Origin: Pythium myriotylum
Taxonomy: Eukaryota > Oomycota > Peronosporomycetes > Pythiales > Pythiaceae
Direction of reading: 5' to 3'
Length of the DNA: 64,000 nt
NCBI GenBank assembly: GCA_023091665.1
Contig: JALJCQ010000011.1
Coordinates: 558,001-622,000, forward strand
A program made the position numbers and the translations under genes. Below the pieces are notes generated by a model. It was given only the letters and a program-made list of their open reading frames with translations. It was not told where the DNA came from and ran no database searches. Below are positions 1 to 59,869 of the stretch, piece after piece. Position 1 is the first letter of the stretch, and each line of letters begins with the position of its first letter.

Positions 1-259
1 GCTAACCCCAATACCTGACCGTCGCCAGCTGCGCAGCAAGATTCTCAGTGCGTGCGCTACAGTGCGTTTACGCGGAGCAGAGGCCATGGTTCTCACCTTT
101 GTGCGCCTGGACTCGCCAAAGGAGGAAAGCATCACTGATATACGAGTGTTCAACGACGCCATCGAGAGCCTCGACACCGTTCTCAGTCTCGCCAAGGTGC
201 ACTACGATGAACTGCTCAGACTCAACCGAACGACCGAACGATTGTCACAAGACAACTAA
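1..259 (+). CDS. Array ORF, 3' fragment cut by the window edge (copy 0)
   Basis: Last 85 codons plus TAA of the array ORF; the first complete codon begins at base 2. It has the common Val163 and Arg187 states and the A allele four bases after the stop (263). It shows that the array continues to the left. Confidence 0.5.
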   Translation, partial: LTPIPDRRQLRSKILSACATVRLRGAEAMVLTFVRLDSPKEESITDIRVFNDAIESLDTVLSLAKVHYDELLRLNRTTERLSQDN

Positions 260-264
260 CGCAC

Positions 265-321
265 GACAAGCAGTTGCTTGACTTTGTCGCGGACACGGTA
301 TTCAGGATGGAAGGGAAGTAA
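265..321 (+). other. Out-of-frame coding-like tail after the array ORF stop (recurs in units followed by a spacer)
   Basis: Beginning five bases after the TAA, in the -1 frame relative to the ORF, the sequence reads DKQLLDFVADTVFRMEGK and then TAA. Its composition resembles a natural amphipathic C-terminus. The preceding ORF end (ERLSQDN) would join it if one base were inserted near the stop. The same arrangement recurs every 1,052 bp and is lost only after the last copy, where the array breaks at 59182. It may be a relic of a longer ancestral reading frame, a second exon (CTAAC at 256-260 resembles a branch point and is followed by CAG at 271-273), or chance. No good GTRNGT donor was found upstream in the ORF. 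Confidence 0.35.
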
Positions 322-353
322 GAGTGCCGTGTGACCCCGTGTATCAAGATTAT

Positions 354-368
354 GTGAGTCATACTCAC
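354..368. promoter_or_regulatory. 15-bp palindrome with TGAGTCA core in each spacer
   Basis: GTGAGT-CAT-ACTCAC is a perfect 6-bp inverted repeat with a 3-bp centre. It contains TGAGTCA (355-361), the classical AP-1/GCN4-type bZIP site. It recurs unchanged every 1,052 bp. The GTGAGT half also matches a consensus 5' splice site, so a binding-site role is only one reading. Confidence 0.3.
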
Positions 369-533
369 TCGCTCGATGCGTGGGGTATAATAACTGTCTC
401 CGACGGTAGTTGATGGATTTTCGAGGCTCGCTCTTTCTGAGGGCTCAAGGTCGTCACCGCATACAAAGAAAACGTGGGAGCGTTTCTTACAACTTCTACG
501 AATCACGATTAATGTTATTGTTGAGAACAAAAT

Positions 534-574
534 CTTGAAGGGTCGCCCTCGACTTCAAGTGTTGTAGTCAACAC
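534..574. repeat. Two adjoining hairpins in each spacer
   Basis: CTTGAAG (534-540) pairs with CTTCAAG (553-559), with an inner AGGG/CCCT. It is followed directly by GTGTTG (559-564) pairing with CAACAC (569-574) over a 4-base loop. Both are perfect and recur in every unit. They lie about 90-130 bp upstream of the initiator-like element. No RNA family was recognised. Confidence 0.4.
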
Positions 575-628
575 TATTTCGGCTGACAATGCAGCGGGTG
601 ATGACCCACATGGGACGTGCGCCGTCAG

Positions 629-650
629 CAACGGCGAGATGCCGCCGTTG
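629..650. promoter_or_regulatory. GC-rich perfect hairpin just upstream of the initiator
   Basis: CAACGGCG (629-636) and CGCCGTTG (643-650) form a perfect 8-bp stem with loop AGATGC. It ends 15 bp before the initiator-like element and recurs every 1,052 bp. It could be a dyad operator for a dimeric regulator or a structured end of an upstream transcript; the sequence does not decide. Confidence 0.4.
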
Positions 651-665
651 GGGTCTTTCTCCGTT

Positions 666-679
666 CCATTCTCGACTTT
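666..679 (+). promoter_or_regulatory. Oomycete-type initiator (Inr plus T-rich element), one per unit
   Basis: CCATTCTCGACTTT matches the oomycete core promoter pattern YCATTYY-N-CAWTTT at 12 of 14 positions by my count. It lies 33 bp before the ATG at 712, typical of the short leaders in this group. An in-frame TAG at 697-699 between it and the ATG fixes 712 as the first usable start. A G at -3 favours initiation there. The element recurs at the same phase in every unit, so each ORF copy would have its own promoter. Confidence 0.5.
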
Positions 680-711
680 TTGTCGTGGGCGCGCCGTAGT
701 CGCCGGACGAG

Positions 712-1311
712 ATGATTAGCCAGCAGTCGGTCGATGCCATGTGCCGAGTCTGGAAGGACGGGGTTCACACTGCCACGCACATGTTGCTCAATCTCGGGCG
801 CCTTTACAAGATCCGAGTGTCTGTGCCAGATCAAGCGAGCCCGTTGACCGAGATCTCCCAACTCGGCTTCGACCTGCTCCCGCTCTTCGGATCGCATGTA
901 TTCTCCGTCAAAGAAGTCAGGCCGTTTGGCCACACGAGTGTTCGCGTACGTTTTTTACCCGTAGAGCGGGATACACCAGTCATAAGACAGGAGCCACTAG
1001 ATGGGATCCACAAAGAAGACGTGCTCGCGGGCATCGATGGGGGTGATCTGCTGCTAACCCCAATACCTGACCGTCGCCAGCTGCGCAGCAAGATTCTCAG
1101 TGCGTGCGCTACAGTGCGTTTACGCGGAGCAGAGGCCATGGTTCTCACCTTTGTGCGCCTGGACTCGCCAAAGGAGGAAAGCATCACTGATATACGAGTG
1201 TTCAACGACGCCATCGAGAGCCTCGACACCGTTCTCAGTCTCGCCAAGGTGCACTACGATGAACTGCTCAGACTCAACCGAACGACCGAACGATTGTCAC
1301 AAGACAACTAA
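712..1311 (+). CDS. Array ORF copy 1: unrecognised 199-aa protein (reference copy)
   Basis: ATG to TAA, 199 aa. I do not recognise the family. Residues 1-35 show no signal peptide. Residues 35-95 alternate hydrophobic and polar residues, suggesting beta strands. The centre (about 95-135) is rich in Asp, Glu, Arg and Pro. Residues 160-199 are charged and Leu-rich, suggesting a helix (for example AIESLDTVLSLAKVHYDELL). No membrane segment or catalytic motif is visible. Codons favour C or G in third position, as in oomycete genes. Start support: initiator 33 bp upstream, in-frame stop at 697-699, G at -3. The antisense 102-aa and 138-aa frames over the same DNA are shadows: in copy 33 a silent sense change puts a stop in the 102-aa antisense frame. 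Following spacer allele is G at 1315. The protein may be C-terminally shortened, given the coding-like out-of-frame tail after the stop. Confidence 0.55.
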   Translation: MISQQSVDAMCRVWKDGVHTATHMLLNLGRLYKIRVSVPDQASPLTEISQLGFDLLPLFGSHVFSVKEVRPFGHTSVRVRFLPVERDTPVIRQEPLDGIHKEDVLAGIDGGDLLLTPIPDRRQLRSKILSACATVRLRGAEAMVLTFVRLDSPKEESITDIRVFNDAIESLDTVLSLAKVHYDELLRLNRTTERLSQDN

Positions 1312-1763
1312 CGCGCGACAAGCAGTTGCTTGACTTTGTCGCGGACACGGTATTCAGGATGGAAGGGAAGTAAGAGTGCCGTGTGACCCCGTGTATCAAG
1401 ATTATGTGAGTCATACTCACTCGCTCGATGCGTGGGGTATAATAACTGTCTCCGACGGTAGTTGATGGATTTTCGAGGCTCGCTCTTTCTGAGGGCTCAA
1501 GGTCGTCACCGCATACAAAGAAAACGTGGGAGCGTTTCTTACAACTTCTACGAATCACGATTAATGTTATTGTTGAGAACAAAATCTTGAAGGGTCGCCC
1601 TCGACTTCAAGTGTTGTAGTCAACACTATTTCGGCTGACAATGCAGCGGGTGATGACCCACATGGGACGTGCGCCGTCAGCAACGGCGAGATGCCGCCGT
1701 TGGGGTCTTTCTCCGTTCCATTCTCGACTTTTTGTCGTGGGCGCGCCGTAGTCGCCGGACGAG

Positions 1764-2363
1764 ATGATTAGCCAGCAGTCGGTCGATGCCATGTGCCGAG
1801 TCTGGAAGGACGGGGTTCACACTGCCACGCACATGTTGCTCAATCTCGGGCGCCTTTACAAGATCCGAGTGTCTGTGCCAGATCAAGCGAGCCCGTTGAC
1901 CGAGATCTCCCAACTCGGCTTCGACCTGCTCCCGCTCTTCGGATCGCATGTATTCTCCGTCAAAGAAGTCAGGCCGTTTGGCCACACGAGTGTTCGCGTA
2001 CGTTTTTTACCCGTAGAGCGGGATACACCAGTCATAAGACAGGAGCCACTAGATGGGATCCACAAAGAAGACGTGCTCGCGGGCATCGATGGGGGTGATC
2101 TGCTGCTAACCCCAATACCTGACCGTCGCCAGCTGCGCAGCAAGATTCTCAGTGCGTGCGCTACAGTGCGTTTACGCGGAGCAGAGGCCATGGTTCTCAC
2201 CTTTGTGCGCCTGGACTCGCCAAAGGAGGAAAGCATCACTGATATACGAGTGTTCAACGACGCCATCGAGAGCCTCGACACCGTTCTCAGTCTCGCCAAG
2301 GTGCACTACGATGAACTGCTCATACTCAACCGAACGACCGAACGATTGTCACAAGACAACTAA
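1764..2363 (+). CDS. Array ORF copy 2 (Ile187 variant)
   Basis: Differs from copy 1 by Arg187Ile (AGA to ATA, base 2323). Following spacer allele A. The same haplotype recurs in copies 6 and 7. Confidence 0.52.
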   Translation: MISQQSVDAMCRVWKDGVHTATHMLLNLGRLYKIRVSVPDQASPLTEISQLGFDLLPLFGSHVFSVKEVRPFGHTSVRVRFLPVERDTPVIRQEPLDGIHKEDVLAGIDGGDLLLTPIPDRRQLRSKILSACATVRLRGAEAMVLTFVRLDSPKEESITDIRVFNDAIESLDTVLSLAKVHYDELLILNRTTERLSQDN

Positions 2364-2815
2364 CGCACGACAAGCAGTTGCTTGACTTTGTCGCGGACAC
2401 GGTATTCAGGATGGAAGGGAAGTAAGAGTGCCGTGTGACCCCGTGTATCAAGATTATGTGAGTCATACTCACTCGCTCGATGCGTGGGGTATAATAACTG
2501 TCTCCGACGGTAGTTGATGGATTTTCGAGGCTCGCTCTTTCTGAGGGCTCAAGGTCGTCACCGCATACAAAGAAAACGTGGGAGCGTTTCTTACAACTTC
2601 TACGAATCACGATTAATGTTATTGTTGAGAACAAAATCTTGAAGGGTCGCCCTCGACTTCAAGTGTTGTAGTCAACACTATTTCGGCTGACAATGCAGCG
2701 GGTGATGACCCACATGGGACGTGCGCCGTCAGCAACGGCGAGATGCCGCCGTTGGGGTCTTTCTCCGTTCCATTCTCGACTTTTTGTCGTGGGCGCGCCG
2801 TAGTCGCCGGACGAG

Positions 2816-3415
2816 ATGATTAGCCAGCAGTCGGTCGATGCCATGTGCCGAGTCTGGAAGGACGGGGTTCACACTGCCACGCACATGTTGCTCAATCTCG
2901 GGCGCCTTTACAAGATCCGAGTGTCTGTGCCAGATCAAGCGAGCCCGTTGACCGAGATCTCCCAACTCGGCTTCGACCTGCTCCCGCTCTTCGGATCGCA
3001 TGTATTCTCCGTCAAAGAAGTCAGGCCGTTTGGCCACACGAGTGTTCGCGTACGTTTTTTACCCGTAGAGCGGGATACACCAGTCATAAGACAGGAGCCA
3101 CTAGATGGGATCCACAAAGAAGACGTGCTCGCGGGCATCGATGGGGGTGATCTGCTGCTAACCCCAATACCTGACCGTCGCCAGCTGCGCAGCAAGATTC
3201 TCAGTGCGTGCGCTACAGTGCGTTTACGCGGAGCAGAGGCCATGGTTCTCACCTTTGTGCGCCTGGACTCGCCAAAGGAGGAAAGCATCACTGATATACG
3301 AGTGTTCAACGACGCCATCGAGAGCCTCGACACCGTTCTCAGTCTCGCCAAGGTGCACTACGATGAACTGCTCAGACTCAACCGAACGACCGAACGATTG
3401 TCACAAGACAACTAA
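2816..3415 (+). CDS. Array ORF copy 3
   Basis: Protein identical to copy 1; following spacer allele G. Confidence 0.52.
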   Translation: MISQQSVDAMCRVWKDGVHTATHMLLNLGRLYKIRVSVPDQASPLTEISQLGFDLLPLFGSHVFSVKEVRPFGHTSVRVRFLPVERDTPVIRQEPLDGIHKEDVLAGIDGGDLLLTPIPDRRQLRSKILSACATVRLRGAEAMVLTFVRLDSPKEESITDIRVFNDAIESLDTVLSLAKVHYDELLRLNRTTERLSQDN

Positions 3416-3867
3416 CGCGCGACAAGCAGTTGCTTGACTTTGTCGCGGACACGGTATTCAGGATGGAAGGGAAGTAAGAGTGCCGTGTGACCCCGTGTAT
3501 CAAGATTATGTGAGTCATACTCACTCGCTCGATGCGTGGGGTATAATAACTGTCTCCGACGGTAGTTGATGGATTTTCGAGGCTCGCTCTTTCTGAGGGC
3601 TCAAGGTCGTCACCGCATACAAAGAAAACGTGGGAGCGTTTCTTACAACTTCTACGAATCACGATTAATGTTATTGTTGAGAACAAAATCTTGAAGGGTC
3701 GCCCTCGACTTCAAGTGTTGTAGTCAACACTATTTCGGCTGACAATGCAGCGGGTGATGACCCACATGGGACGTGCGCCGTCAGCAACGGCGAGATGCCG
3801 CCGTTGGGGTCTTTCTCCGTTCCATTCTCGACTTTTTGTCGTGGGCGCGCCGTAGTCGCCGGACGAG

Positions 3868-4467
3868 ATGATTAGCCAGCAGTCGGTCGATGCCATGTGC
3901 CGAGTCTGGAAGGACGGGGTTCACACTGCCACGCACATGTTGCTCAATCTCGGGCGCCTTTACAAGATCCGAGTGTCTGTGCCAGATCAAGCGAGCCCGT
4001 TGACCGAGATCTCCCAACTCGGCTTCGACCTGCTCCCGCTCTTCGGATCGCATGTATTCTCCGTCAAAGAAGTCAGGCCGTTTGGCCACACGAGTGTTCG
4101 CGTACGTTTTTTACCCGTAGAGCGGGATACACCAGTCATAAGACAGGAGCCACTAGATGGGATCCACAAAGAAGACGTGCTCGCGGGCATCGATGGGGGT
4201 GATCTGCTGCTAACCCCAATACCTGACCGTCGCCAGCTGCGCAGCAAGATTCTCAGTGCGTGCGCTACAGTGCGTTTACGCGGAGCAGAGGCCATGGTTC
4301 TCACCTTTGTGCGCCTGGACTCGCCAAAGGAGGAAAGCATCACTGATATACGAGTGTTCAACGACGCCATCGAGAGCCTCGACACCGTTCTCAGTCTCGC
4401 CAAGGTGCACTACGATGAACTGCTCAGACTCAACCGAACGACCGAACGATTGTCACAAGACAACTAA
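3868..4467 (+). CDS. Array ORF copy 4
   Basis: Protein identical to copy 1; following spacer allele G. Confidence 0.52.
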   Translation: MISQQSVDAMCRVWKDGVHTATHMLLNLGRLYKIRVSVPDQASPLTEISQLGFDLLPLFGSHVFSVKEVRPFGHTSVRVRFLPVERDTPVIRQEPLDGIHKEDVLAGIDGGDLLLTPIPDRRQLRSKILSACATVRLRGAEAMVLTFVRLDSPKEESITDIRVFNDAIESLDTVLSLAKVHYDELLRLNRTTERLSQDN

Positions 4468-4919
4468 CGCGCGACAAGCAGTTGCTTGACTTTGTCGCGG
4501 ACACGGTATTCAGGATGGAAGGGAAGTAAGAGTGCCGTGTGACCCCGTGTATCAAGATTATGTGAGTCATACTCACTCGCTCGATGCGTGGGGTATAATA
4601 ACTGTCTCCGACGGTAGTTGATGGATTTTCGAGGCTCGCTCTTTCTGAGGGCTCAAGGTCGTCACCGCATACAAAGAAAACGTGGGAGCGTTTCTTACAA
4701 CTTCTACGAATCACGATTAATGTTATTGTTGAGAACAAAATCTTGAAGGGTCGCCCTCGACTTCAAGTGTTGTAGTCAACACTATTTCGGCTGACAATGC
4801 AGCGGGTGATGACCCACATGGGACGTGCGCCGTCAGCAACGGCGAGATGCCGCCGTTGGGGTCTTTCTCCGTTCCATTCTCGACTTTTTGTCGTGGGCGC
4901 GCCGTAGTCGCCGGACGAG

Positions 4920-5519
4920 ATGATTAGCCAGCAGTCGGTCGATGCCATGTGCCGAGTCTGGAAGGACGGGGTTCACACTGCCACGCACATGTTGCTCAAT
5001 CTCGGGCGCCTTTACAAGATCCGAGTGTCTGTGCCAGATCAAGCGAGCCCGTTGACCGAGATCTCCCAACTCGGCTTCGACCTGCTCCCGCTCTTCGGAT
5101 CGCATGTATTCTCCGTCAAAGAAGTCAGGCCGTTTGGCCACACGAGTGTTCGCGTACGTTTTTTACCCGTAGAGCGGGATACACCAGTCATAAGACAGGA
5201 GCCACTAGATGGGATCCACAAAGAAGACGTGCTCGCGGGCATCGATGGGGGTGATCTGCTGCTAACCCCAATACCTGACCGTCGCCAGCTGCGCAGCAAG
5301 ATTCTCAGTGCGTGCGCTACAGTGCGTTTACGCGGAGCAGAGGCCATGGTTCTCACCTTTGTGCGCCTGGACTCGCCAAAGGAGGAAAGCATCACTGATA
5401 TACGAGCGTTCAACGACGCCATCGAGAGCCTCGACACCGTTCTCAGTCTCGCCAAGGTGCACTACGATGAACTGCTCAGACTCAACCGAACGACCGAACG
5501 ATTGTCACAAGACAACTAA
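4920..5519 (+). CDS. Array ORF copy 5 (Ala163 variant)
   Basis: Val163Ala (GTG to GCG, base 5407). Following spacer allele G. Same haplotype as copy 8. Confidence 0.52.
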   Translation: MISQQSVDAMCRVWKDGVHTATHMLLNLGRLYKIRVSVPDQASPLTEISQLGFDLLPLFGSHVFSVKEVRPFGHTSVRVRFLPVERDTPVIRQEPLDGIHKEDVLAGIDGGDLLLTPIPDRRQLRSKILSACATVRLRGAEAMVLTFVRLDSPKEESITDIRAFNDAIESLDTVLSLAKVHYDELLRLNRTTERLSQDN

Positions 5520-5971
5520 CGCGCGACAAGCAGTTGCTTGACTTTGTCGCGGACACGGTATTCAGGATGGAAGGGAAGTAAGAGTGCCGTGTGACCCCGT
5601 GTATCAAGATTATGTGAGTCATACTCACTCGCTCGATGCGTGGGGTATAATAACTGTCTCCGACGGTAGTTGATGGATTTTCGAGGCTCGCTCTTTCTGA
5701 GGGCTCAAGGTCGTCACCGCATACAAAGAAAACGTGGGAGCGTTTCTTACAACTTCTACGAATCACGATTAATGTTATTGTTGAGAACAAAATCTTGAAG
5801 GGTCGCCCTCGACTTCAAGTGTTGTAGTCAACACTATTTCGGCTGACAATGCAGCGGGTGATGACCCACATGGGACGTGCGCCGTCAGCAACGGCGAGAT
5901 GCCGCCGTTGGGGTCTTTCTCCGTTCCATTCTCGACTTTTTGTCGTGGGCGCGCCGTAGTCGCCGGACGAG

Positions 5972-6571
5972 ATGATTAGCCAGCAGTCGGTCGATGCCAT
6001 GTGCCGAGTCTGGAAGGACGGGGTTCACACTGCCACGCACATGTTGCTCAATCTCGGGCGCCTTTACAAGATCCGAGTGTCTGTGCCAGATCAAGCGAGC
6101 CCGTTGACCGAGATCTCCCAACTCGGCTTCGACCTGCTCCCGCTCTTCGGATCGCATGTATTCTCCGTCAAAGAAGTCAGGCCGTTTGGCCACACGAGTG
6201 TTCGCGTACGTTTTTTACCCGTAGAGCGGGATACACCAGTCATAAGACAGGAGCCACTAGATGGGATCCACAAAGAAGACGTGCTCGCGGGCATCGATGG
6301 GGGTGATCTGCTGCTAACCCCAATACCTGACCGTCGCCAGCTGCGCAGCAAGATTCTCAGTGCGTGCGCTACAGTGCGTTTACGCGGAGCAGAGGCCATG
6401 GTTCTCACCTTTGTGCGCCTGGACTCGCCAAAGGAGGAAAGCATCACTGATATACGAGTGTTCAACGACGCCATCGAGAGCCTCGACACCGTTCTCAGTC
6501 TCGCCAAGGTGCACTACGATGAACTGCTCATACTCAACCGAACGACCGAACGATTGTCACAAGACAACTAA
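5972..6571 (+). CDS. Array ORF copy 6 (Ile187 variant)
   Basis: Arg187Ile; following spacer allele A; same haplotype as copies 2 and 7. Confidence 0.52.
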   Translation: MISQQSVDAMCRVWKDGVHTATHMLLNLGRLYKIRVSVPDQASPLTEISQLGFDLLPLFGSHVFSVKEVRPFGHTSVRVRFLPVERDTPVIRQEPLDGIHKEDVLAGIDGGDLLLTPIPDRRQLRSKILSACATVRLRGAEAMVLTFVRLDSPKEESITDIRVFNDAIESLDTVLSLAKVHYDELLILNRTTERLSQDN

Positions 6572-7023
6572 CGCACGACAAGCAGTTGCTTGACTTTGTC
6601 GCGGACACGGTATTCAGGATGGAAGGGAAGTAAGAGTGCCGTGTGACCCCGTGTATCAAGATTATGTGAGTCATACTCACTCGCTCGATGCGTGGGGTAT
6701 AATAACTGTCTCCGACGGTAGTTGATGGATTTTCGAGGCTCGCTCTTTCTGAGGGCTCAAGGTCGTCACCGCATACAAAGAAAACGTGGGAGCGTTTCTT
6801 ACAACTTCTACGAATCACGATTAATGTTATTGTTGAGAACAAAATCTTGAAGGGTCGCCCTCGACTTCAAGTGTTGTAGTCAACACTATTTCGGCTGACA
6901 ATGCAGCGGGTGATGACCCACATGGGACGTGCGCCGTCAGCAACGGCGAGATGCCGCCGTTGGGGTCTTTCTCCGTTCCATTCTCGACTTTTTGTCGTGG
7001 GCGCGCCGTAGTCGCCGGACGAG

Positions 7024-7623
7024 ATGATTAGCCAGCAGTCGGTCGATGCCATGTGCCGAGTCTGGAAGGACGGGGTTCACACTGCCACGCACATGTTGCT
7101 CAATCTCGGGCGCCTTTACAAGATCCGAGTGTCTGTGCCAGATCAAGCGAGCCCGTTGACCGAGATCTCCCAACTCGGCTTCGACCTGCTCCCGCTCTTC
7201 GGATCGCATGTATTCTCCGTCAAAGAAGTCAGGCCGTTTGGCCACACGAGTGTTCGCGTACGTTTTTTACCCGTAGAGCGGGATACACCAGTCATAAGAC
7301 AGGAGCCACTAGATGGGATCCACAAAGAAGACGTGCTCGCGGGCATCGATGGGGGTGATCTGCTGCTAACCCCAATACCTGACCGTCGCCAGCTGCGCAG
7401 CAAGATTCTCAGTGCGTGCGCTACAGTGCGTTTACGCGGAGCAGAGGCCATGGTTCTCACCTTTGTGCGCCTGGACTCGCCAAAGGAGGAAAGCATCACT
7501 GATATACGAGTGTTCAACGACGCCATCGAGAGCCTCGACACCGTTCTCAGTCTCGCCAAGGTGCACTACGATGAACTGCTCATACTCAACCGAACGACCG
7601 AACGATTGTCACAAGACAACTAA
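7024..7623 (+). CDS. Array ORF copy 7 (Ile187 variant)
   Basis: Arg187Ile; following spacer allele A; adjacent to copy 6 with the same haplotype, suggesting a local duplication. Confidence 0.52.
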   Translation: MISQQSVDAMCRVWKDGVHTATHMLLNLGRLYKIRVSVPDQASPLTEISQLGFDLLPLFGSHVFSVKEVRPFGHTSVRVRFLPVERDTPVIRQEPLDGIHKEDVLAGIDGGDLLLTPIPDRRQLRSKILSACATVRLRGAEAMVLTFVRLDSPKEESITDIRVFNDAIESLDTVLSLAKVHYDELLILNRTTERLSQDN

Positions 7624-8075
7624 CGCACGACAAGCAGTTGCTTGACTTTGTCGCGGACACGGTATTCAGGATGGAAGGGAAGTAAGAGTGCCGTGTGACC
7701 CCGTGTATCAAGATTATGTGAGTCATACTCACTCGCTCGATGCGTGGGGTATAATAACTGTCTCCGACGGTAGTTGATGGATTTTCGAGGCTCGCTCTTT
7801 CTGAGGGCTCAAGGTCGTCACCGCATACAAAGAAAACGTGGGAGCGTTTCTTACAACTTCTACGAATCACGATTAATGTTATTGTTGAGAACAAAATCTT
7901 GAAGGGTCGCCCTCGACTTCAAGTGTTGTAGTCAACACTATTTCGGCTGACAATGCAGCGGGTGATGACCCACATGGGACGTGCGCCGTCAGCAACGGCG
8001 AGATGCCGCCGTTGGGGTCTTTCTCCGTTCCATTCTCGACTTTTTGTCGTGGGCGCGCCGTAGTCGCCGGACGAG

Positions 8076-8675
8076 ATGATTAGCCAGCAGTCGGTCGATG
8101 CCATGTGCCGAGTCTGGAAGGACGGGGTTCACACTGCCACGCACATGTTGCTCAATCTCGGGCGCCTTTACAAGATCCGAGTGTCTGTGCCAGATCAAGC
8201 GAGCCCGTTGACCGAGATCTCCCAACTCGGCTTCGACCTGCTCCCGCTCTTCGGATCGCATGTATTCTCCGTCAAAGAAGTCAGGCCGTTTGGCCACACG
8301 AGTGTTCGCGTACGTTTTTTACCCGTAGAGCGGGATACACCAGTCATAAGACAGGAGCCACTAGATGGGATCCACAAAGAAGACGTGCTCGCGGGCATCG
8401 ATGGGGGTGATCTGCTGCTAACCCCAATACCTGACCGTCGCCAGCTGCGCAGCAAGATTCTCAGTGCGTGCGCTACAGTGCGTTTACGCGGAGCAGAGGC
8501 CATGGTTCTCACCTTTGTGCGCCTGGACTCGCCAAAGGAGGAAAGCATCACTGATATACGAGCGTTCAACGACGCCATCGAGAGCCTCGACACCGTTCTC
8601 AGTCTCGCCAAGGTGCACTACGATGAACTGCTCAGACTCAACCGAACGACCGAACGATTGTCACAAGACAACTAA
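8076..8675 (+). CDS. Array ORF copy 8 (Ala163 variant)
   Basis: Val163Ala (base 8563); following spacer allele G; same haplotype as copy 5. Confidence 0.52.
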   Translation: MISQQSVDAMCRVWKDGVHTATHMLLNLGRLYKIRVSVPDQASPLTEISQLGFDLLPLFGSHVFSVKEVRPFGHTSVRVRFLPVERDTPVIRQEPLDGIHKEDVLAGIDGGDLLLTPIPDRRQLRSKILSACATVRLRGAEAMVLTFVRLDSPKEESITDIRAFNDAIESLDTVLSLAKVHYDELLRLNRTTERLSQDN

Positions 8676-9127
8676 CGCGCGACAAGCAGTTGCTTGACTT
8701 TGTCGCGGACACGGTATTCAGGATGGAAGGGAAGTAAGAGTGCCGTGTGACCCCGTGTATCAAGATTATGTGAGTCATACTCACTCGCTCGATGCGTGGG
8801 GTATAATAACTGTCTCCGACGGTAGTTGATGGATTTTCGAGGCTCGCTCTTTCTGAGGGCTCAAGGTCGTCACCGCATACAAAGAAAACGTGGGAGCGTT
8901 TCTTACAACTTCTACGAATCACGATTAATGTTATTGTTGAGAACAAAATCTTGAAGGGTCGCCCTCGACTTCAAGTGTTGTAGTCAACACTATTTCGGCT
9001 GACAATGCAGCGGGTGATGACCCACATGGGACGTGCGCCGTCAGCAACGGCGAGATGCCGCCGTTGGGGTCTTTCTCCGTTCCATTCTCGACTTTTTGTC
9101 GTGGGCGCGCCGTAGTCGCCGGACGAG

Positions 9128-9727
9128 ATGATTAGCCAGCAGTCGGTCGATGCCATGTGCCGAGTCTGGAAGGACGGGGTTCACACTGCCACGCACATGT
9201 TGCTCAATCTCGGGCGCCTTTACAAGATCCGAGTGTCTGTGCCAGATCAAGCGAGCCCGTTGACCGAGATCTCCCAACTCGGCTTCGACCTGCTCCCGCT
9301 CTTCGGATCGCATGTATTCTCCGTCAAAGAAGTCAGGCCGTTTGGCCACACGAGTGTTCGCGTACGTTTTTTACCCGTAGAGCGGGATACACCAGTCATA
9401 AGACAGGAGCCACTAGATGGGATCCACAAAGAAGACGTGCTCGCGGGCATCGATGGGGGTGATCTGCTGCTAACCCCAATACCTGACCGTCGCCAGCTGC
9501 GCAGCAAGATTCTCAGTGCGTGCGCTACAGTGCGTTTACGCGGAGCAGAGGCCATGGTTCTCACCTTTGTGCGCCTGGACTCGCCAAAGGAGGAAAGCAT
9601 CACTGATATACGAGTGTTCAACGACGCCATCGAGAGCCTCGACACCGTTCTCAGTCTCGCCAAGGTGCACTACGATGAACTGCTCAGACTCAACCGAACG
9701 ACCGAACGATTGTCACAAGACAACTAA
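9128..9727 (+). CDS. Array ORF copy 9
   Basis: Protein identical to copy 1; spacer allele A. First copy of an A-allele block that runs through copy 18. Confidence 0.52.
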   Translation: MISQQSVDAMCRVWKDGVHTATHMLLNLGRLYKIRVSVPDQASPLTEISQLGFDLLPLFGSHVFSVKEVRPFGHTSVRVRFLPVERDTPVIRQEPLDGIHKEDVLAGIDGGDLLLTPIPDRRQLRSKILSACATVRLRGAEAMVLTFVRLDSPKEESITDIRVFNDAIESLDTVLSLAKVHYDELLRLNRTTERLSQDN

Positions 9728-10179
9728 CGCACGACAAGCAGTTGCTTGACTTTGTCGCGGACACGGTATTCAGGATGGAAGGGAAGTAAGAGTGCCGTGT
9801 GACCCCGTGTATCAAGATTATGTGAGTCATACTCACTCGCTCGATGCGTGGGGTATAATAACTGTCTCCGACGGTAGTTGATGGATTTTCGAGGCTCGCT
9901 CTTTCTGAGGGCTCAAGGTCGTCACCGCATACAAAGAAAACGTGGGAGCGTTTCTTACAACTTCTACGAATCACGATTAATGTTATTGTTGAGAACAAAA
10001 TCTTGAAGGGTCGCCCTCGACTTCAAGTGTTGTAGTCAACACTATTTCGGCTGACAATGCAGCGGGTGATGACCCACATGGGACGTGCGCCGTCAGCAAC
10101 GGCGAGATGCCGCCGTTGGGGTCTTTCTCCGTTCCATTCTCGACTTTTTGTCGTGGGCGCGCCGTAGTCGCCGGACGAG

Positions 10180-49703: not shown

Positions 49704-50155
49704 CGCGCGACAAGCAGTTGCTTGACTTTGTCGCGGACACGGTATTCAGGATGGAAGGGAAGTAAGAGTGCCGTGTGACCCCGTGTATCAAGATTATGTG
49801 AGTCATACTCACTCGCTCGATGCGTGGGGTATAATAACTGTCTCCGACGGTAGTTGATGGATTTTCGAGGCTCGCTCTTTCTGAGGGCTCAAGGTCGTCA
49901 CCGCATACAAAGAAAACGTGGGAGCGTTTCTTACAACTTCTACGAATCACGATTAATGTTATTGTTGAGAACAAAATCTTGAAGGGTCGCCCTCGACTTC
50001 AAGTGTTGTAGTCAACACTATTTCGGCTGACAATGCAGCGGGTGATGACCCACATGGGACGTGCGCCGTCAGCAACGGCGAGATGCCGCCGTTGGGGTCT
50101 TTCTCCGTTCCATTCTCGACTTTTTGTCGTGGGCGCGCCGTAGTCGCCGGACGAG

Positions 50156-50755
50156 ATGATTAGCCAGCAGTCGGTCGATGCCATGTGCCGAGTCTGGAAG
50201 GACGGGGTTCACACTGCCACGCACATGTTGCTCAATCTCGGGCGCCTTTACAAGATCCGAGTGTCTGTGCCAGATCAAGCGAGCCCGTTGACCGAGATCT
50301 CCCAACTCGGCTTCGACCTGCTCCCGCTCTTCGGATCGCATGTATTCTCCGTCAAAGAAGTCAGGCCGTTTGGCCACACGAGTGTTCGCGTACGTTTTTT
50401 ACCCGTAGAGCGGGATACACCAGTCATAAGACAGGAGCCACTAGATGGGATCCACAAAGAAGACGTGCTCGCGGGCATCGATGGGGGTGATCTGCTGCTA
50501 ACCCCAATACCTGACCGTCGCCAGCTGCGCAGCAAGATTCTCAGTGCGTGCGCTACAGTGCGTTTACGCGGAGCAGAGGCCATGGTTCTCACCTTTGTGC
50601 GCCTGGACTCGCCAAAGGAGGAAAGCATCACTGATATACGAGTGTTCAACGACGCCATCGAGAGCCTCGACACCGTTCTCAGTCTCGCCAAGGTGCACTA
50701 CGATGAACTGCTCAGACTCAACCGAACGACCGAACGATTGTCACAAGACAACTAA
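50156..50755 (+). CDS. Array ORF copy 48
   Basis: Protein identical to copy 1; common spacer type. Confidence 0.52.
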   Translation: MISQQSVDAMCRVWKDGVHTATHMLLNLGRLYKIRVSVPDQASPLTEISQLGFDLLPLFGSHVFSVKEVRPFGHTSVRVRFLPVERDTPVIRQEPLDGIHKEDVLAGIDGGDLLLTPIPDRRQLRSKILSACATVRLRGAEAMVLTFVRLDSPKEESITDIRVFNDAIESLDTVLSLAKVHYDELLRLNRTTERLSQDN

Positions 50756-51207
50756 CGCGCGACAAGCAGTTGCTTGACTTTGTCGCGGACACGGTATTCA
50801 GGATGGAAGGGAAGTAAGAGTGCCGTGTGACCCCGTGTATCAAGATTATGTGAGTCATACTCACTCGCTCGATGCGTGGGGTATAATAACTGTCTCCGAC
50901 GGTAGTTGATGGATTTTCGAGGCTCGCTCTTTCTGAGGGCTCAAGGTCGTCACCGCATACAAAGAAAACGTGGGAGCGTTTCTTACAACTTCTACGAATC
51001 ACGATTAATGTTATTGTTGAGAACAAAATCTTGAAGGGTCGCCCTCGACTTCAAGTGTTGTAGTCAACACTATTTCGGCTGACAATGCAGCGGGTGATGA
51101 CCCACATGGGACGTGCGCCGTCAGCAACGGCGAGATGCCGCCGTTGGGGTCTTTCTCCGTTCCATTCTCGACTTTTTGTCGTGGGCGCGCCGTAGTCGCC
51201 GGACGAG

Positions 51208-51807
51208 ATGATTAGCCAGCAGTCGGTCGATGCCATGTGCCGAGTCTGGAAGGACGGGGTTCACACTGCCACGCACATGTTGCTCAATCTCGGGCGCCTT
51301 TACAAGATCCGAGTGTCTGTGCCAGATCAAGCGAGCCCGTTGACCGAGATCTCCCAACTCGGCTTCGACCTGCTCCCGCTCTTCGGATCGCATGTATTCT
51401 CCGTCAAAGAAGTCAGGCCGTTTGGCCACACGAGTGTTCGCGTACGTTTTTTACCCGTAGAGCGGGATACACCAGTCATAAGACAGGAGCCACTAGATGG
51501 GATCCACAAAGAAGACGTGCTCGCGGGCATCGATGGGGGTGATCTGCTGCTAACCCCAATACCTGACCGTCGCCAGCTGCGCAGCAAGATTCTCAGTGCG
51601 TGCGCTACAGTGCGTTTACGCGGAGCAGAGGCCATGGTTCTCACCTTTGTGCGCCTGGACTCGCCAAAGGAGGAAAGCATCACTGATATACGAGTGTTCA
51701 ACGACGCCATCGAGAGCCTCGACACCGTTCTCAGTCTCGCCAAGGTGCACTACGATGAACTGCTCAGACTCAACCGAACGACCGAACGATTGTCACAAGA
51801 CAACTAA
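51208..51807 (+). CDS. Array ORF copy 49
   Basis: Protein identical to copy 1; common spacer type. Confidence 0.52.
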   Translation: MISQQSVDAMCRVWKDGVHTATHMLLNLGRLYKIRVSVPDQASPLTEISQLGFDLLPLFGSHVFSVKEVRPFGHTSVRVRFLPVERDTPVIRQEPLDGIHKEDVLAGIDGGDLLLTPIPDRRQLRSKILSACATVRLRGAEAMVLTFVRLDSPKEESITDIRVFNDAIESLDTVLSLAKVHYDELLRLNRTTERLSQDN

Positions 51808-52259
51808 CGCGCGACAAGCAGTTGCTTGACTTTGTCGCGGACACGGTATTCAGGATGGAAGGGAAGTAAGAGTGCCGTGTGACCCCGTGTATCAAGATTA
51901 TGTGAGTCATACTCACTCGCTCGATGCGTGGGGTATAATAACTGTCTCCGACGGTAGTTGATGGATTTTCGAGGCTCGCTCTTTCTGAGGGCTCAAGGTC
52001 GTCACCGCATACAAAGAAAACGTGGGAGCGTTTCTTACAACTTCTACGAATCACGATTAATGTTATTGTTGAGAACAAAATCTTGAAGGGTCGCCCTCGA
52101 CTTCAAGTGTTGTAGTCAACACTATTTCGGCTGACAATGCAGCGGGTGATGACCCACATGGGACGTGCGCCGTCAGCAACGGCGAGATGCCGCCGTTGGG
52201 GTCTTTCTCCGTTCCATTCTCGACTTTTTGTCGTGGGCGCGCCGTAGTCGCCGGACGAG

Positions 52260-52859
52260 ATGATTAGCCAGCAGTCGGTCGATGCCATGTGCCGAGTCTG
52301 GAAGGACGGGGTTCACACTGCCACGCACATGTTGCTCAATCTCGGGCGCCTTTACAAGATCCGAGTGTCTGTGCCAGATCAAGCGAGCCCGTTGACCGAG
52401 ATCTCCCAACTCGGCTTCGACCTGCTCCCGCTCTTCGGATCGCATGTATTCTCCGTCAAAGAAGTCAGGCCGTTTGGCCACACGAGTGTTCGCGTACGTT
52501 TTTTACCCGTAGAGCGGGATACACCAGTCATAAGACAGGAGCCACTAGATGGGATCCACAAAGAAGACGTGCTCGCGGGCATCGATGGGGGTGATCTGCT
52601 GCTAACCCCAATACCTGACCGTCGCCAGCTGCGCAGCAAGATTCTCAGTGCGTGCGCTACAGTGCGTTTACGCGGAGCAGAGGCCATGGTTCTCACCTTT
52701 GTGCGCCTGGACTCGCCAAAGGAGGAAAGCATCACTGATATACGAGTGTTCAACGACGCCATCGAGAGCCTCGACACCGTTCTCAGTCTCGCCAAGGTGC
52801 ACTACGATGAACTGCTCAGACTCAACCGAACGACCGAACGATTGTCACAAGACAACTAA
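52260..52859 (+). CDS. Array ORF copy 50
   Basis: Protein identical to copy 1; its spacer has a private T-to-C at 53115 (phase 515). Confidence 0.52.
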   Translation: MISQQSVDAMCRVWKDGVHTATHMLLNLGRLYKIRVSVPDQASPLTEISQLGFDLLPLFGSHVFSVKEVRPFGHTSVRVRFLPVERDTPVIRQEPLDGIHKEDVLAGIDGGDLLLTPIPDRRQLRSKILSACATVRLRGAEAMVLTFVRLDSPKEESITDIRVFNDAIESLDTVLSLAKVHYDELLRLNRTTERLSQDN

Positions 52860-53311
52860 CGCGCGACAAGCAGTTGCTTGACTTTGTCGCGGACACGGTA
52901 TTCAGGATGGAAGGGAAGTAAGAGTGCCGTGTGACCCCGTGTATCAAGATTATGTGAGTCATACTCACTCGCTCGATGCGTGGGGTATAATAACTGTCTC
53001 CGACGGTAGTTGATGGATTTTCGAGGCTCGCTCTTTCTGAGGGCTCAAGGTCGTCACCGCATACAAAGAAAACGTGGGAGCGTTTCTTACAACTTCTACG
53101 AATCACGATTAATGCTATTGTTGAGAACAAAATCTTGAAGGGTCGCCCTCGACTTCAAGTGTTGTAGTCAACACTATTTCGGCTGACAATGCAGCGGGTG
53201 ATGACCCACATGGGACGTGCGCCGTCAGCAACGGCGAGATGCCGCCGTTGGGGTCTTTCTCCGTTCCATTCTCGACTTTTTGTCGTGGGCGCGCCGTAGT
53301 CGCCGGACGAG

Positions 53312-53911
53312 ATGATTAGCCAGCAGTCGGTCGATGCCATGTGCCGAGTCTGGAAGGACGGGGTTCACACTGCCACGCACATGTTGCTCAATCTCGGGCG
53401 CCTTTACAAGATCCGAGTGTCTGTGCCAGATCAAGCGAGCCCGTTGACCGAGATCTCCCAACTCGGCTTCGACCTGCTCCCGCTCTTCGGATCGCATGTA
53501 TTCTCCGTCAAAGAAGTCAGGCCGTTTGGCCACACGAGTGTTCGCGTACGTTTTTTACCCGTAGAGCGGGATACACCAGTCATAAGACAGGAGCCACTAG
53601 ATGGGATCCACAAAGAAGACGTGCTCGCGGGCATCGATGGGGGTGATCTGCTGCTAACCCCAATACCTGACCGTCGCCAGCTGCGCAGCAAGATTCTCAG
53701 TGCGTGCGCTACAGTGCGTTTACGCGGAGCAGAGGCCATGGTTCTCACCTTTGTGCGCCTGGACTCGCCAAAGGAGGAAAGCATCACTGATATACGAGTG
53801 TTCAACGACGCCATCGAGAGCCTCGACACCGTTCTCAGTCTCGCCAAGGTGCACTACGATGAACTGCTCAGACTCAACCGAACGACCGAACGATTGTCAC
53901 AAGACAACTAA
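53312..53911 (+). CDS. Array ORF copy 51
   Basis: Protein identical to copy 1; common spacer type. Confidence 0.52.
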   Translation: MISQQSVDAMCRVWKDGVHTATHMLLNLGRLYKIRVSVPDQASPLTEISQLGFDLLPLFGSHVFSVKEVRPFGHTSVRVRFLPVERDTPVIRQEPLDGIHKEDVLAGIDGGDLLLTPIPDRRQLRSKILSACATVRLRGAEAMVLTFVRLDSPKEESITDIRVFNDAIESLDTVLSLAKVHYDELLRLNRTTERLSQDN

Positions 53912-54363
53912 CGCGCGACAAGCAGTTGCTTGACTTTGTCGCGGACACGGTATTCAGGATGGAAGGGAAGTAAGAGTGCCGTGTGACCCCGTGTATCAAG
54001 ATTATGTGAGTCATACTCACTCGCTCGATGCGTGGGGTATAATAACTGTCTCCGACGGTAGTTGATGGATTTTCGAGGCTCGCTCTTTCTGAGGGCTCAA
54101 GGTCGTCACCGCATACAAAGAAAACGTGGGAGCGTTTCTTACAACTTCTACGAATCACGATTAATGTTATTGTTGAGAACAAAATCTTGAAGGGTCGCCC
54201 TCGACTTCAAGTGTTGTAGTCAACACTATTTCGGCTGACAATGCAGCGGGTGATGACCCACATGGGACGTGCGCCGTCAGCAACGGCGAGATGCCGCCGT
54301 TGGGGTCTTTCTCCGTTCCATTCTCGACTTTTTGTCGTGGGCGCGCCGTAGTCGCCGGACGAG

Positions 54364-54963
54364 ATGATTAGCCAGCAGTCGGTCGATGCCATGTGCCGAG
54401 TCTGGAAGGACGGGGTTCACACTGCCACGCACATGTTGCTCAATCTCGGGCGCCTTTACAAGATCCGAGTGTCTGTGCCAGATCAAGCGAGCCCGTTGAC
54501 CGAGATCTCCCAACTCGGCTTCGACCTGCTCCCGCTCTTCGGATCGCATGTATTCTCCGTCAAAGAAGTCAGGCCGTTTGGCCACACGAGTGTTCGCGTA
54601 CGTTTTTTACCCGTAGAGCGGGATACACCAGTCATAAGACAGGAGCCACTAGATGGGATCCACAAAGAAGACGTGCTCGCGGGCATCGATGGGGGTGATC
54701 TGCTGCTAACCCCAATACCTGACCGTCGCCAGCTGCGCAGCAAGATTCTCAGTGCGTGCGCTACAGTGCGTTTACGCGGAGCAGAGGCCATGGTTCTCAC
54801 CTTTGTGCGCCTGGACTCGCCAAAGGAGGAAAGCATCACTGATATACGAGTGTTCAACGACGCCATCGAGAGCCTCGACACCGTTCTCAGTCTCGCCAAG
54901 GTGCACTACGATGAACTGCTCAGACTCAACCGAACGACCGAACGATTGTCACAAGACAACTAA
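54364..54963 (+). CDS. Array ORF copy 52
   Basis: Protein identical to copy 1; common spacer type. Confidence 0.52.
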   Translation: MISQQSVDAMCRVWKDGVHTATHMLLNLGRLYKIRVSVPDQASPLTEISQLGFDLLPLFGSHVFSVKEVRPFGHTSVRVRFLPVERDTPVIRQEPLDGIHKEDVLAGIDGGDLLLTPIPDRRQLRSKILSACATVRLRGAEAMVLTFVRLDSPKEESITDIRVFNDAIESLDTVLSLAKVHYDELLRLNRTTERLSQDN

Positions 54964-55415
54964 CGCGCGACAAGCAGTTGCTTGACTTTGTCGCGGACAC
55001 GGTATTCAGGATGGAAGGGAAGTAAGAGTGCCGTGTGACCCCGTGTATCAAGATTATGTGAGTCATACTCACTCGCTCGATGCGTGGGGTATAATAACTG
55101 TCTCCGACGGTAGTTGATGGATTTTCGAGGCTCGCTCTTTCTGAGGGCTCAAGGTCGTCACCGCATACAAAGAAAACGTGGGAGCGTTTCTTACAACTTC
55201 TACGAATCACGATTAATGTTATTGTTGAGAACAAAATCTTGAAGGGTCGCCCTCGACTTCAAGTGTTGTAGTCAACACTATTTCGGCTGACAATGCAGCG
55301 GGTGATGACCCACATGGGACGTGCGCCGTCAGCAACGGCGAGATGCCGCCGTTGGGGTCTTTCTCCGTTCCATTCTCGACTTTTTGTCGTGGGCGCGCCG
55401 TAGTCGCCGGACGAG

Positions 55416-56015
55416 ATGATTAGCCAGCAGTCGGTCGATGCCATGTGCCGAGTCTGGAAGGACGGGGTTCACACTGCCACGCACATGTTGCTCAATCTCG
55501 GGCGCCTTTACAAGATCCGAGTGTCTGTGCCAGATCAAGCGAGCCCGTTGACCGAGATCTCCCAACTCGGCTTCGACCTGCTCCCGCTCTTCGGATCGCA
55601 TGTATTCTCCGTCAAAGAAGTCAGGCCGTTTGGCCACACGAGTGTTCGCGTACGTTTTTTACCCGTAGAGCGGGATACACCAGTCATAAGACAGGAGCCA
55701 CTAGATGGGATCCACAAAGAAGACGTGCTCGCGGGCATCGATGGGGGTGATCTGCTGCTAACCCCAATACCTGACCGTCGCCAGCTGCGCAGCAAGATTC
55801 TCAGTGCGTGCGCTACAGTGCGTTTACGCGGAGCAGAGGCCATGGTTCTCACCTTTGTGCGCCTGGACTCGCCAAAGGAGGAAAGCATCACTGATATACG
55901 AGTGTTCAACGACGCCATCGAGAGCCTCGACACCGTTCTCAGTCTCGCCAAGGTGCACTACGATGAACTGCTCAGACTCAACCGAACGACCGAACGATTG
56001 TCACAAGACAACTAA
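55416..56015 (+). CDS. Array ORF copy 53
   Basis: Protein identical to copy 1; common spacer type. Confidence 0.52.
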   Translation: MISQQSVDAMCRVWKDGVHTATHMLLNLGRLYKIRVSVPDQASPLTEISQLGFDLLPLFGSHVFSVKEVRPFGHTSVRVRFLPVERDTPVIRQEPLDGIHKEDVLAGIDGGDLLLTPIPDRRQLRSKILSACATVRLRGAEAMVLTFVRLDSPKEESITDIRVFNDAIESLDTVLSLAKVHYDELLRLNRTTERLSQDN

Positions 56016-56467
56016 CGCGCGACAAGCAGTTGCTTGACTTTGTCGCGGACACGGTATTCAGGATGGAAGGGAAGTAAGAGTGCCGTGTGACCCCGTGTAT
56101 CAAGATTATGTGAGTCATACTCACTCGCTCGATGCGTGGGGTATAATAACTGTCTCCGACGGTAGTTGATGGATTTTCGAGGCTCGCTCTTTCTGAGGGC
56201 TCAAGGTCGTCACCGCATACAAAGAAAACGTGGGAGCGTTTCTTACAACTTCTACGAATCACGATTAATGTTATTGTTGAGAACAAAATCTTGAAGGGTC
56301 GCCCTCGACTTCAAGTGTTGTAGTCAACACTATTTCGGCTGACAATGCAGCGGGTGATGACCCACATGGGACGTGCGCCGTCAGCAACGGCGAGATGCCG
56401 CCGTTGGGGTCTTTCTCCGTTCCATTCTCGACTTTTTGTCGTGGGCGCGCCGTAGTCGCCGGACGAG

Positions 56468-57067
56468 ATGATTAGCCAGCAGTCGGTCGATGCCATGTGC
56501 CGAGTCTGGAAGGACGGGGTTCACACTGCCACGCACATGTTGCTCAATCTCGGGCGCCTTTACAAGATCCGAGTGTCTGTGCCAGATCAAGCGAGCCCGT
56601 TGACCGAGATCTCCCAACTCGGCTTCGACCTGCTCCCGCTCTTCGGATCGCATGTATTCTCCGTCAAAGAAGTCAGGCCGTTTGGCCACACGAGTGTTCG
56701 CGTACGTTTTTTACCCGTAGAGCGGGATACACCAGTCATAAGACAGGAGCCACTAGATGGGATCCACAAAGAAGACGTGCTCGCGGGCATCGATGGGGGT
56801 GATCTGCTGCTAACCCCAATACCTGACCGTCGCCAGCTGCGCAGCAAGATTCTCAGTGCGTGCGCTACAGTGCGTTTACGCGGAGCAGAGGCCATGGTTC
56901 TCACCTTTGTGCGCCTGGACTCGCCAAAGGAGGAAAGCATCACTGATATACGAGTGTTCAACGACGCCATCGAGAGCCTCGACACCGTTCTCAGTCTCGC
57001 CAAGGTGCACTACGATGAACTGCTCAGACTCAACCGAACGACCGAACGATTGTCACAAGACAACTAA
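56468..57067 (+). CDS. Array ORF copy 54
   Basis: Protein identical to copy 1; common spacer type. Confidence 0.52.
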   Translation: MISQQSVDAMCRVWKDGVHTATHMLLNLGRLYKIRVSVPDQASPLTEISQLGFDLLPLFGSHVFSVKEVRPFGHTSVRVRFLPVERDTPVIRQEPLDGIHKEDVLAGIDGGDLLLTPIPDRRQLRSKILSACATVRLRGAEAMVLTFVRLDSPKEESITDIRVFNDAIESLDTVLSLAKVHYDELLRLNRTTERLSQDN

Positions 57068-57519
57068 CGCGCGACAAGCAGTTGCTTGACTTTGTCGCGG
57101 ACACGGTATTCAGGATGGAAGGGAAGTAAGAGTGCCGTGTGACCCCGTGTATCAAGATTATGTGAGTCATACTCACTCGCTCGATGCGTGGGGTATAATA
57201 ACTGTCTCCGACGGTAGTTGATGGATTTTCGAGGCTCGCTCTTTCTGAGGGCTCAAGGTCGTCACCGCATACAAAGAAAACGTGGGAGCGTTTCTTACAA
57301 CTTCTACGAATCACGATTAATGTTATTGTTGAGAACAAAATCTTGAAGGGTCGCCCTCGACTTCAAGTGTTGTAGTCAACACTATTTCGGCTGACAATGC
57401 AGCGGGTGATGACCCACATGGGACGTGCGCCGTCAGCAACGGCGAGATGCCGCCGTTGGGGTCTTTCTCCGTTCCATTCTCGACTTTTTGTCGTGGGCGC
57501 GCCGTAGTCGCCGGACGAG

Positions 57520-58119
57520 ATGATTAGCCAGCAGTCGGTCGATGCCATGTGCCGAGTCTGGAAGGACGGGGTTCACACTGCCACGCACATGTTGCTCAAT
57601 CTCGGGCGCCTTTACAAGATCCGAGTGTCTGTGCCAGATCAAGCGAGCCCGTTGACCGAGATCTCCCAACTCGGCTTCGACCTGCTCCCGCTCTTCGGAT
57701 CGCATGTATTCTCCGTCAAAGAAGTCAGGCCGTTTGGCCACACGAGTGTTCGCGTACGTTTTTTACCCGTAGAGCGGGATACACCAGTCATAAGACAGGA
57801 GCCACTAGATGGGATCCACAAAGAAGACGTGCTCGCGGGCATCGATGGGGGTGATCTGCTGCTAACCCCAATACCTGACCGTCGCCAGCTGCGCAGCAAG
57901 ATTCTCAGTGCGTGCGCTACAGTGCGTTTACGCGGAGCAGAGGCCATGGTTCTCACCTTTGTGCGCCTGGACTCGCCAAAGGAGGAAAGCATCACTGATA
58001 TACGAGTGTTCAACGACGCCATCGAGAGCCTCGACACCGTTCTCAGTCTCGCCAAGGTGCACTACGATGAACTGCTCAGACTCAACCGAACGACCGAACG
58101 ATTGTCACAAGACAACTAA
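57520..58119 (+). CDS. Array ORF copy 55
   Basis: Protein identical to copy 1; common spacer type. Confidence 0.52.
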   Translation: MISQQSVDAMCRVWKDGVHTATHMLLNLGRLYKIRVSVPDQASPLTEISQLGFDLLPLFGSHVFSVKEVRPFGHTSVRVRFLPVERDTPVIRQEPLDGIHKEDVLAGIDGGDLLLTPIPDRRQLRSKILSACATVRLRGAEAMVLTFVRLDSPKEESITDIRVFNDAIESLDTVLSLAKVHYDELLRLNRTTERLSQDN

Positions 58120-58571
58120 CGCGCGACAAGCAGTTGCTTGACTTTGTCGCGGACACGGTATTCAGGATGGAAGGGAAGTAAGAGTGCCGTGTGACCCCGT
58201 GTATCAAGATTATGTGAGTCATACTCACTCGCTCGATGCGTGGGGTATAATAACTGTCTCCGACGGTAGTTGATGGATTTTCGAGGCTCGCTCTTTCTGA
58301 GGGCTCAAGGTCGTCACCGCATACAAAGAAAACGTGGGAGCGTTTCTTACAACTTCTACGAATCACGATTAATGTTATTGTTGAGAACAAAATCTTGAAG
58401 GGTCGCCCTCGACTTCAAGTGTTGTAGTCAACACTATTTCGGCTGACAATGCAGCGGGTGATGACCCACATGGGACGTGCGCCGTCAGCAACGGCGAGAT
58501 GCCGCCGTTGGGGTCTTTCTCCGTTCCATTCTCGACTTTTTGTCGTGGGCGCGCCGTAGTCGCCGGACGAG

Positions 58572-59171
58572 ATGATTAGCCAGCAGTCGGTCGATGCCAT
58601 GTGCCGAGTCTGGAAGGACGGGGTTCACACTGCCACGCACATGTTGCTCAATCTCGGGCGCCTTTACAAGATCCGAGTGTCTGTGCCAGATCAAGCGAGC
58701 CCGTTGACCGAGATCTCCCAACTCGGCTTCGACCTGCTCCCGCTCTTCGGATCGCATGTATTCTCCGTCAAAGAAGTCAGGCCGTTTGGCCACACGAGTG
58801 TTCGCGTACGTTTTTTACCCGTAGAGCGGGATACACCAGTCATAAGACAGGAGCCACTAGATGGGATCCACAAAGAAGACGTGCTCGCGGGCATCGATGG
58901 GGGTGATCTGCTGCTAACCCCAATACCTGACCGTCGCCAGCTGCGCAGCAAGATTCTCAGTGCGTGCGCTACAGTGCGTTTACGCGGAGCAGAGGCCATG
59001 GTTCTCACCTTTGTGCGCCTGGACTCGCCAAAGGAGGAAAGCATCACTGATATACGAGTGTTCAACGACGCCATCGAGAGCCTCGACACCGTTCTCAGTC
59101 TCGCCAAGGTGCACTACGATGAACTGCTCAGACTCAACCGAACGACCGAACGATTGTCACAAGACAACTAA
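58572..59171 (+). CDS. Array ORF copy 56 (last copy, at the array edge)
   Basis: Complete 199-aa ORF identical to copy 1. Only 11 bp of array sequence follow its TAA before the array stops at 59182, so this copy lacks the normal spacer and any 3' signal in it. Its transcript, if made, would end in foreign DNA, and the out-of-frame tail seen after other copies is absent. Confidence 0.52.
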   Translation: MISQQSVDAMCRVWKDGVHTATHMLLNLGRLYKIRVSVPDQASPLTEISQLGFDLLPLFGSHVFSVKEVRPFGHTSVRVRFLPVERDTPVIRQEPLDGIHKEDVLAGIDGGDLLLTPIPDRRQLRSKILSACATVRLRGAEAMVLTFVRLDSPKEESITDIRVFNDAIESLDTVLSLAKVHYDELLRLNRTTERLSQDN

Positions 59172-59182
59172 CGCGCGACAAG

Positions 59183-59838: not shown

Positions 59839-59869
<31 letters not shown>
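59839..59869. repeat. 31-base poly-C tract
   Basis: An uninterrupted run of 31 C on the plus strand (G on the minus strand), capable of G-quadruplex or i-motif structure. It produces spurious proline-run and glycine-run ORFs on the two strands. Its length is likely unstable in replication and sequencing. Confidence 0.95.

Follow-up and report, generated by a model that had tools for sequence, protein, structure and literature searches.

A tandem gene array of 1,052-bp units in Pythium myriotylum, related to a TFIIS_M-domain gene, and its likely origin

The gene array and the neighboring repeats

The 64,000-bp stretch of Pythium myriotylum DNA analyzed here, which we call the window, corresponds to nucleotides 558001-622000 of contig JALJCQ010000011.1 (C11). 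Nucleotides 1 to 59182 of the window are occupied by a 1,052-bp unit, each including an open reading frame (ORF) of 199 codons, that is repeated 56.26 times (59182/1052). At least 56 near-identical copies of this ORF in one uninterrupted tandem array had been proposed in the original prediction, and this was confirmed: the window includes 56 complete ORFs with starts spaced by exactly 1,052 bp throughout, and a lag-1,052 self-comparison up to the array end showed 35 mismatches. The repeat ends on the right at nucleotide 59182 of the window, while on the left it precedes the window; the full assembled array encompasses C11:553334-617182 (63.8 kb) and has 61 copies of the ORF, all of them (61/61) an open frame without stops. 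The copy number of 61 is the value from a single assembly. When the genome (58.7 Mb in 55 contigs) was searched with the ORF and with the spacer, the unit was matched at one place only; for the spacer, 40 of the 61 candidates were scored, and all 40 were located on C11. In the rDNA of the same genome (C52), a locus that partly reads N, the internal transcribed spacer looks closer to Phytopythium than to Phytophthora. The tandem-repeat listing covers periods of up to 500 bp and an array with a period of 1,052 bp is outside its range. Of the three possibilities initially considered (dosage amplification, a selfish megasatellite, or a structural locus), the megasatellite is the best fit.

The units are highly uniform. 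Across the 60 complete ones only 9 of the 1,052 columns are variable, four in the ORF (two silent changes and two replacements) and five outside, defining 11 haplotypes with a mean pairwise difference of 0.00097 per site. Of the 59 pairs of neighboring units, 30 consist of identical sequences, whereas 15.7 would be expected, and none of 10,000 permutations reached this number. This arrangement of the variants in ordered runs speaks for a real array that has been homogenized by unequal exchange. A near-identical array of 64 kb is difficult for most long reads, and the copy number could have been inflated, or the array misplaced, in the assembly; considering the ordered runs, the unique junctions at both array edges, and the unit-length variation that the adjoining tRNA array shows on its own, we regard such an artefact as very improbable.

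The left neighbor of the gene array is itself an amplified region. A dimer array extends from C11:491667 to about 553150 (loci L038-L043 and L010). Its units, about 50 in number, measure 1.22-1.27 kb, each with both a tRNA-Gln(TTG) and a tRNA-Gln(CTG) gene, for which 49 and 50 exact matches were found, respectively. The TTG-to-TTG spacings are within 1,224-1,265 bp in 47 of 48 cases, the remaining one being 2,524 bp, and the genome has no exact match to the TTG pattern other than the 49 in this array. ARAGORN confirmed tRNA genes in both array stretches submitted, L038 and L010. The start of the gene array falls inside a tRNA unit, and the presence of this amplified neighbor suggests that the site is prone to unequal exchange.

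On the right, a UPF0029-family gene is found about 13 kb from the array. The idea that the locus could be heterochromatin or centromere-proximal DNA, in which the ORF would be incidental, draws on the length, uniformity, and tandem organization of the array. It is not supported, as the array, on a contig of 2.77 Mb, is interstitial, occupies a single place in the genome, and has tRNA genes adjoining one side and the UPF0029-family gene on the other. Furthermore, the centromeres of Phytophthora sojae are described as clusters of Copia-like elements (PMC11139960); Pfam revealed no Copia among the 10 flank ORFs scanned, no search having been aimed at Copia elements. A structural satellite is therefore an explanation to which we give very little weight.

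The related gene on contig C4 and its counterparts on C11

Searching the P. myriotylum genome with the array ORF product revealed only one match outside the array, C4:1136024-1136590 on the minus strand (E 1.8e-38, 45% identity over 183 aligned residues). The comparison of the array ORF with the C4 protein reached a score of 352, the maximum among 500 codon shuffles being 65. This match is included in a 783-aa ORF whose residues 460-573 form a TFIIS_M central domain (E 2e-15; its PF07500 score of 57.6 bits exceeds the cut-off of 29.2). The C4 protein does not match TFIIS proper over its whole length, the TIGR01385 score being 33.4 bits where the cut-off is 237.1. The region common to the array ORF and the C4 protein corresponds approximately to C4 residues 154-342 and lies outside the TFIIS_M domain, as it does outside residues 505-575, where the solved-structure match of the C4 protein, which is TFIIS, was found. 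Consistent with this location, no family match to the TFIIS central domain was found in the array protein. TFIIS_M was detected at four places in the genome, none of them on C11; the other three are C12:2230095, C15:1793450, and C4:2104500, the last one below the family cut-off.

This homology is the strong evidence that the array ORF is or was coding. The length of the ORF alone is modest evidence, since frames of at least 199 codons appeared in 7 cases when the bases of a single unit were shuffled 1,000 times. Reading the array as a plain satellite is not supported. The gene had been described as unrecognised, and a profile search of its product had been recommended. The description stands insofar as the array protein showed no match in Pfam, NCBIfam, or PDB profile and structure-sequence searches, and fails insofar as the search of its own genome, rather than the profiles, related it to the N-terminal part of the C4 protein. 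Searches of a collection of about 5.8 billion clustered proteins, of viral contigs, and of prokaryote genome contigs found no relative within their thresholds; oomycetes are probably few in these collections, and the empty searches do not make the array gene an orphan. A profile of the two paralogues produced one match to solved structures with an E of 2, taken as chance, and a single-sequence structure model of the array protein had a mean pLDDT of 39.3, too poor for a fold search. A likeness to PDZ domains noticed by eye was discarded: neither the array nor the C4 protein matched a PDZ profile up to E 10, and neither place is included in the genome-wide set of 27 PDZ matches.

Two more ORFs come after the 783-aa ORF on its strand of C4, one of 703 aa and then a tail ORF of 241 aa. 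A GT-AG intron of 72 nucleotides would link the latter two in phase 0, and the donor sequences GTTAAG and GTATGT are present near the end of the 783-aa ORF for the first junction, for which donors only are shown. From these splice signals only, we infer that the three ORFs are one gene. When 144 of the 241 tail residues were compared to the genome, one match was obtained outside C4, and it is located at C11:617529-617708 on the minus strand (E 1.9e-7), starting 347 bp past the array. A fuller comparison, restricted to the 4.8-kb flank with filters off, extended this match to a remnant located 130-660 bp past the right edge of the array, consisting of six segments with no internal stops and three frame changes (combined E 6e-27). 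The C11 relatives of the first exon, i.e., the array unit, and of the last exon are thus adjacent, in inverted orientation to each other.

The 3' end of the array ORF also carries a trace of its origin. Past the point where the aligned frame ends, homology to the C4 protein continues in another frame for 18 codons that overlap and pass the stop (10 of 18 identical; none of 5,000 shuffles scored as high), and no further similarity to the C4 protein was found beyond them. The continuation in another frame identifies the array ORF as a truncated 5' fragment. Since the relatives of the first and last exons are side by side on C11, with no other matches outside C4 and no TFIIS_M domain on C11, it is probable that this contig once carried a whole paralogue of the C4 gene that broke and lost its middle portion.

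Table 1. Location of the features in the window.
Feature	Position	Strand	Remarks
Array portion inside the window	1..59182	+	56.26 units, 56 complete ORFs
Match to the INR consensus YCAYTYY	666..672	+	5' of the ATG, one per unit; consensus from PMC3599244
Representative ORF, 199 aa + stop	712..1311	+	repeats each 1,052 bp to 58572-59171; related to the C4 783-aa ORF
18 codons in another frame	1284..1337	+	C4 homology continues across the ORF stop
Spacer between array ORFs	1312..1763	+	matched only within the array (40 of 61 candidates scored)
Decayed piece similar to residues ~30-207 of the C4 241-aa last-exon ORF	59312..59844	-	frames -2, -3, -2, -1

The remaining right flank has other repeats and relics. 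A run of 31 C (window 59839-59869) is found at the edge of the tail remnant, and a plus-strand match of the last residues of the tail (window 59205-59237, E 0.34) was taken as chance. A 131-bp stretch is present twice in tandem, with 100% matches, at window 62616-62876. No Rfam match was found up to E 1 in window 57000-64000, and the unit has no B box. A scan of five flank ORFs against Pfam gave one match at E 0.01. A broken Tc5-like transposase is encoded on the minus strand by two ORFs (window 60214-61233), about 1 kb past the array; its Tc5 DNA-binding domain is above the curated cut-off and DDE_1 is below it, and the other three of the five window ORFs scanned had none of note. This transposase remnant could be taken to mean that the unit is a transposon or a transposon relic, but the unit is matched at one place only and its ORF has no family match and is related instead to a TFIIS_M-domain gene, which makes a mobile element the least credible of the explanations that we considered.

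Proposed origin of the array and probable constraint on the ORF

We consider it rather likely that the array is a gene-bearing macrosatellite that arose when a gene was broken, with an amplification that needs no protein function, the ORF being a passenger first. A rearrangement would have broken the C11 paralogue, with loss of the middle and subsequent decay of the tail; the 5' part, ending in the frame change, would have become the 1,052-bp unit, and unequal exchange would have raised it to about 61 copies and would keep these uniform. Each ORF may have an initiator of its own that drives its transcription, any product being secondary to the passenger amplification, and it is possible that a stand-alone domain is translated from the ORF.

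The initiator (INR) had been proposed to be a property of each unit. YCAYTYY is given as the oomycete INR consensus (PMC3599244), and one match per unit is found at a plausible place, 46 bases 5' of the ATG, with none on the minus strand; FPR and DPEP showed no match within 200 bases upstream of the ATG. At one per kilobase YCAYTYY is near its chance frequency, and it is its position alone that suggests an initiator. The proposal stands as to the place of the element and is weakened as to its frequency. Promoter DNA common to the array and C4 was not supported, the best match being the 8-base GTTCCATT, equaled in 1,261 of 2,000 shuffles, and an extension of the protein-level C4 match 5' of the array ATG crosses two TAG codons and was not relied on.

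The alternative is an array selected for dosage, in which the 199-aa stand-alone N-terminal domain would be made in quantity and would compete with or tune the full-length C4 TFIIS_M protein, or drive its own spread. The open state of the ORF in all copies and the location of the INR match would agree with such a role. Other observations count against an amplification indifferent to the protein. Between the array and C4 paralogues, the dN/dS estimates obtained by four methods are 0.45-0.62, and identities at codon positions 1, 2, and 3 are 0.62, 0.65, and 0.51 (183 aligned codons). In a neutral null model using the C4 sequence as stand-in ancestor and ignoring indels, the runs that kept an open frame numbered 36 of 1,000 when 0.3 substitutions per site were introduced and 7 of 1,000 when 0.5 were. 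A long neutral history would thus usually have introduced stops, and during much of the period after the split the N-terminal region was probably constrained, in a comparison without outgroup in which the two branches are inseparable. In addition, the 5' ORF has no frame change over the 183 aligned codons, as opposed to three in the tail remnant; this survival of the ORF beyond that of the gene tail is the best indication that the short ORF remained useful once the gene had broken. The asymmetry may also have arisen because the tail was freed from constraint first, via the truncating frame change.

Against selection for dosage, two of the four variants in the ORF are replacements and five of the nine variants of the unit are outside it, with no sign of constraint in numbers that are too few, and the final residues of the ORF stem from the frame change. 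Moreover, at 0.05 and 0.1 substitutions per site the same null model gave an open frame in 521 and 266 of 1,000 runs, respectively, and recent neutrality is compatible with these figures. Because the few variants within the array show no bias against replacements and the end of the ORF is accidental, we rank passenger amplification higher and hold selection for dosage to be unlikely, while giving it more weight than the artefact, structural, or mobile-element explanations.

Comparison with known systems

In the Stellate arrays of Drosophila, which have a known silencing partner, the gene repeated in tandem originated from a portion of the coding region of a cellular gene. The array described here likewise consists of tandem copies from the partial coding sequence of a cellular gene. 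By analogy, the N-terminal piece that survived from a protein of the transcription-elongation type might act as a high-dose decoy, 61 copies against the full-length C4 factor, in an array born at an exchange hotspot beside tRNA repeats. Such a counterpart of Stellate or of the human TAF11-Like genes is a speculative proposal that we consider doubtful.

Among oomycete repeats, PpSat and AeSat are described as head-to-tail arrays of tens of similar units, as is the case here. The searches concerned retained units of 100-500 bp, a range that excludes the 1,052-bp unit; gene prediction gave neither a significant ORF in the first contigs with PpSat nor coding sequence in the AeSat regions (PMC7290008; PMC8780586). 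Arrays like this one would escape such searches. A literature search, which reached few subscription papers, found no gene macrosatellite in oomycetes. Dimeric tRNA-Gln arrays of the same kind as the left neighbor exist in Phytophthora infestans, and unequal crossing-over has been proposed for their growth (PMC9584435). Those arrays share with the gene array this proposed mode of growth and the occurrence of variants in groups toward one edge, and differ from it in that they carry tRNA genes rather than a protein ORF (PMC9584435).

The best reading of the array is as a gene-bearing macrosatellite. Its closest known counterpart is the human TAF11-Like macrosatellite at 5p15.1, with 3.4-kb units that each include an ORF of 594 bp; it is conserved among primates, and its expression has been described in testis and brain. 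The size of macrosatellite units is given as 'several kilobases', and some of them, such as those of D4Z4, RS447, and TAF11-Like, have one ORF each (PMC3018141). As in TAF11-Like, the units of the P. myriotylum array, tens of them, are repeated in tandem at a single site, and every unit has a short open ORF (597 bp plus stop) related to a general transcription protein, and few variants, none of which breaks the frame (PMC3018141). The unit, at 1.05 kb as compared to 3.4 kb, is smaller than 'several kilobases', and the array behaves as a macrosatellite of small unit size (PMC3018141). Unlike what is described for TAF11-Like, what is left of the other part of the source gene is found, in decayed form, beside the array (PMC3018141). 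The birth history of a macrosatellite would be readable here in one assembly, which includes the paralogue of the source gene, the broken remnant, the amplified 5' piece, and the amplified tRNA neighbor, and such a history would let one ask whether gene arrays are at first simply carried along by unequal exchange at the site or are selected for dosage from the start.

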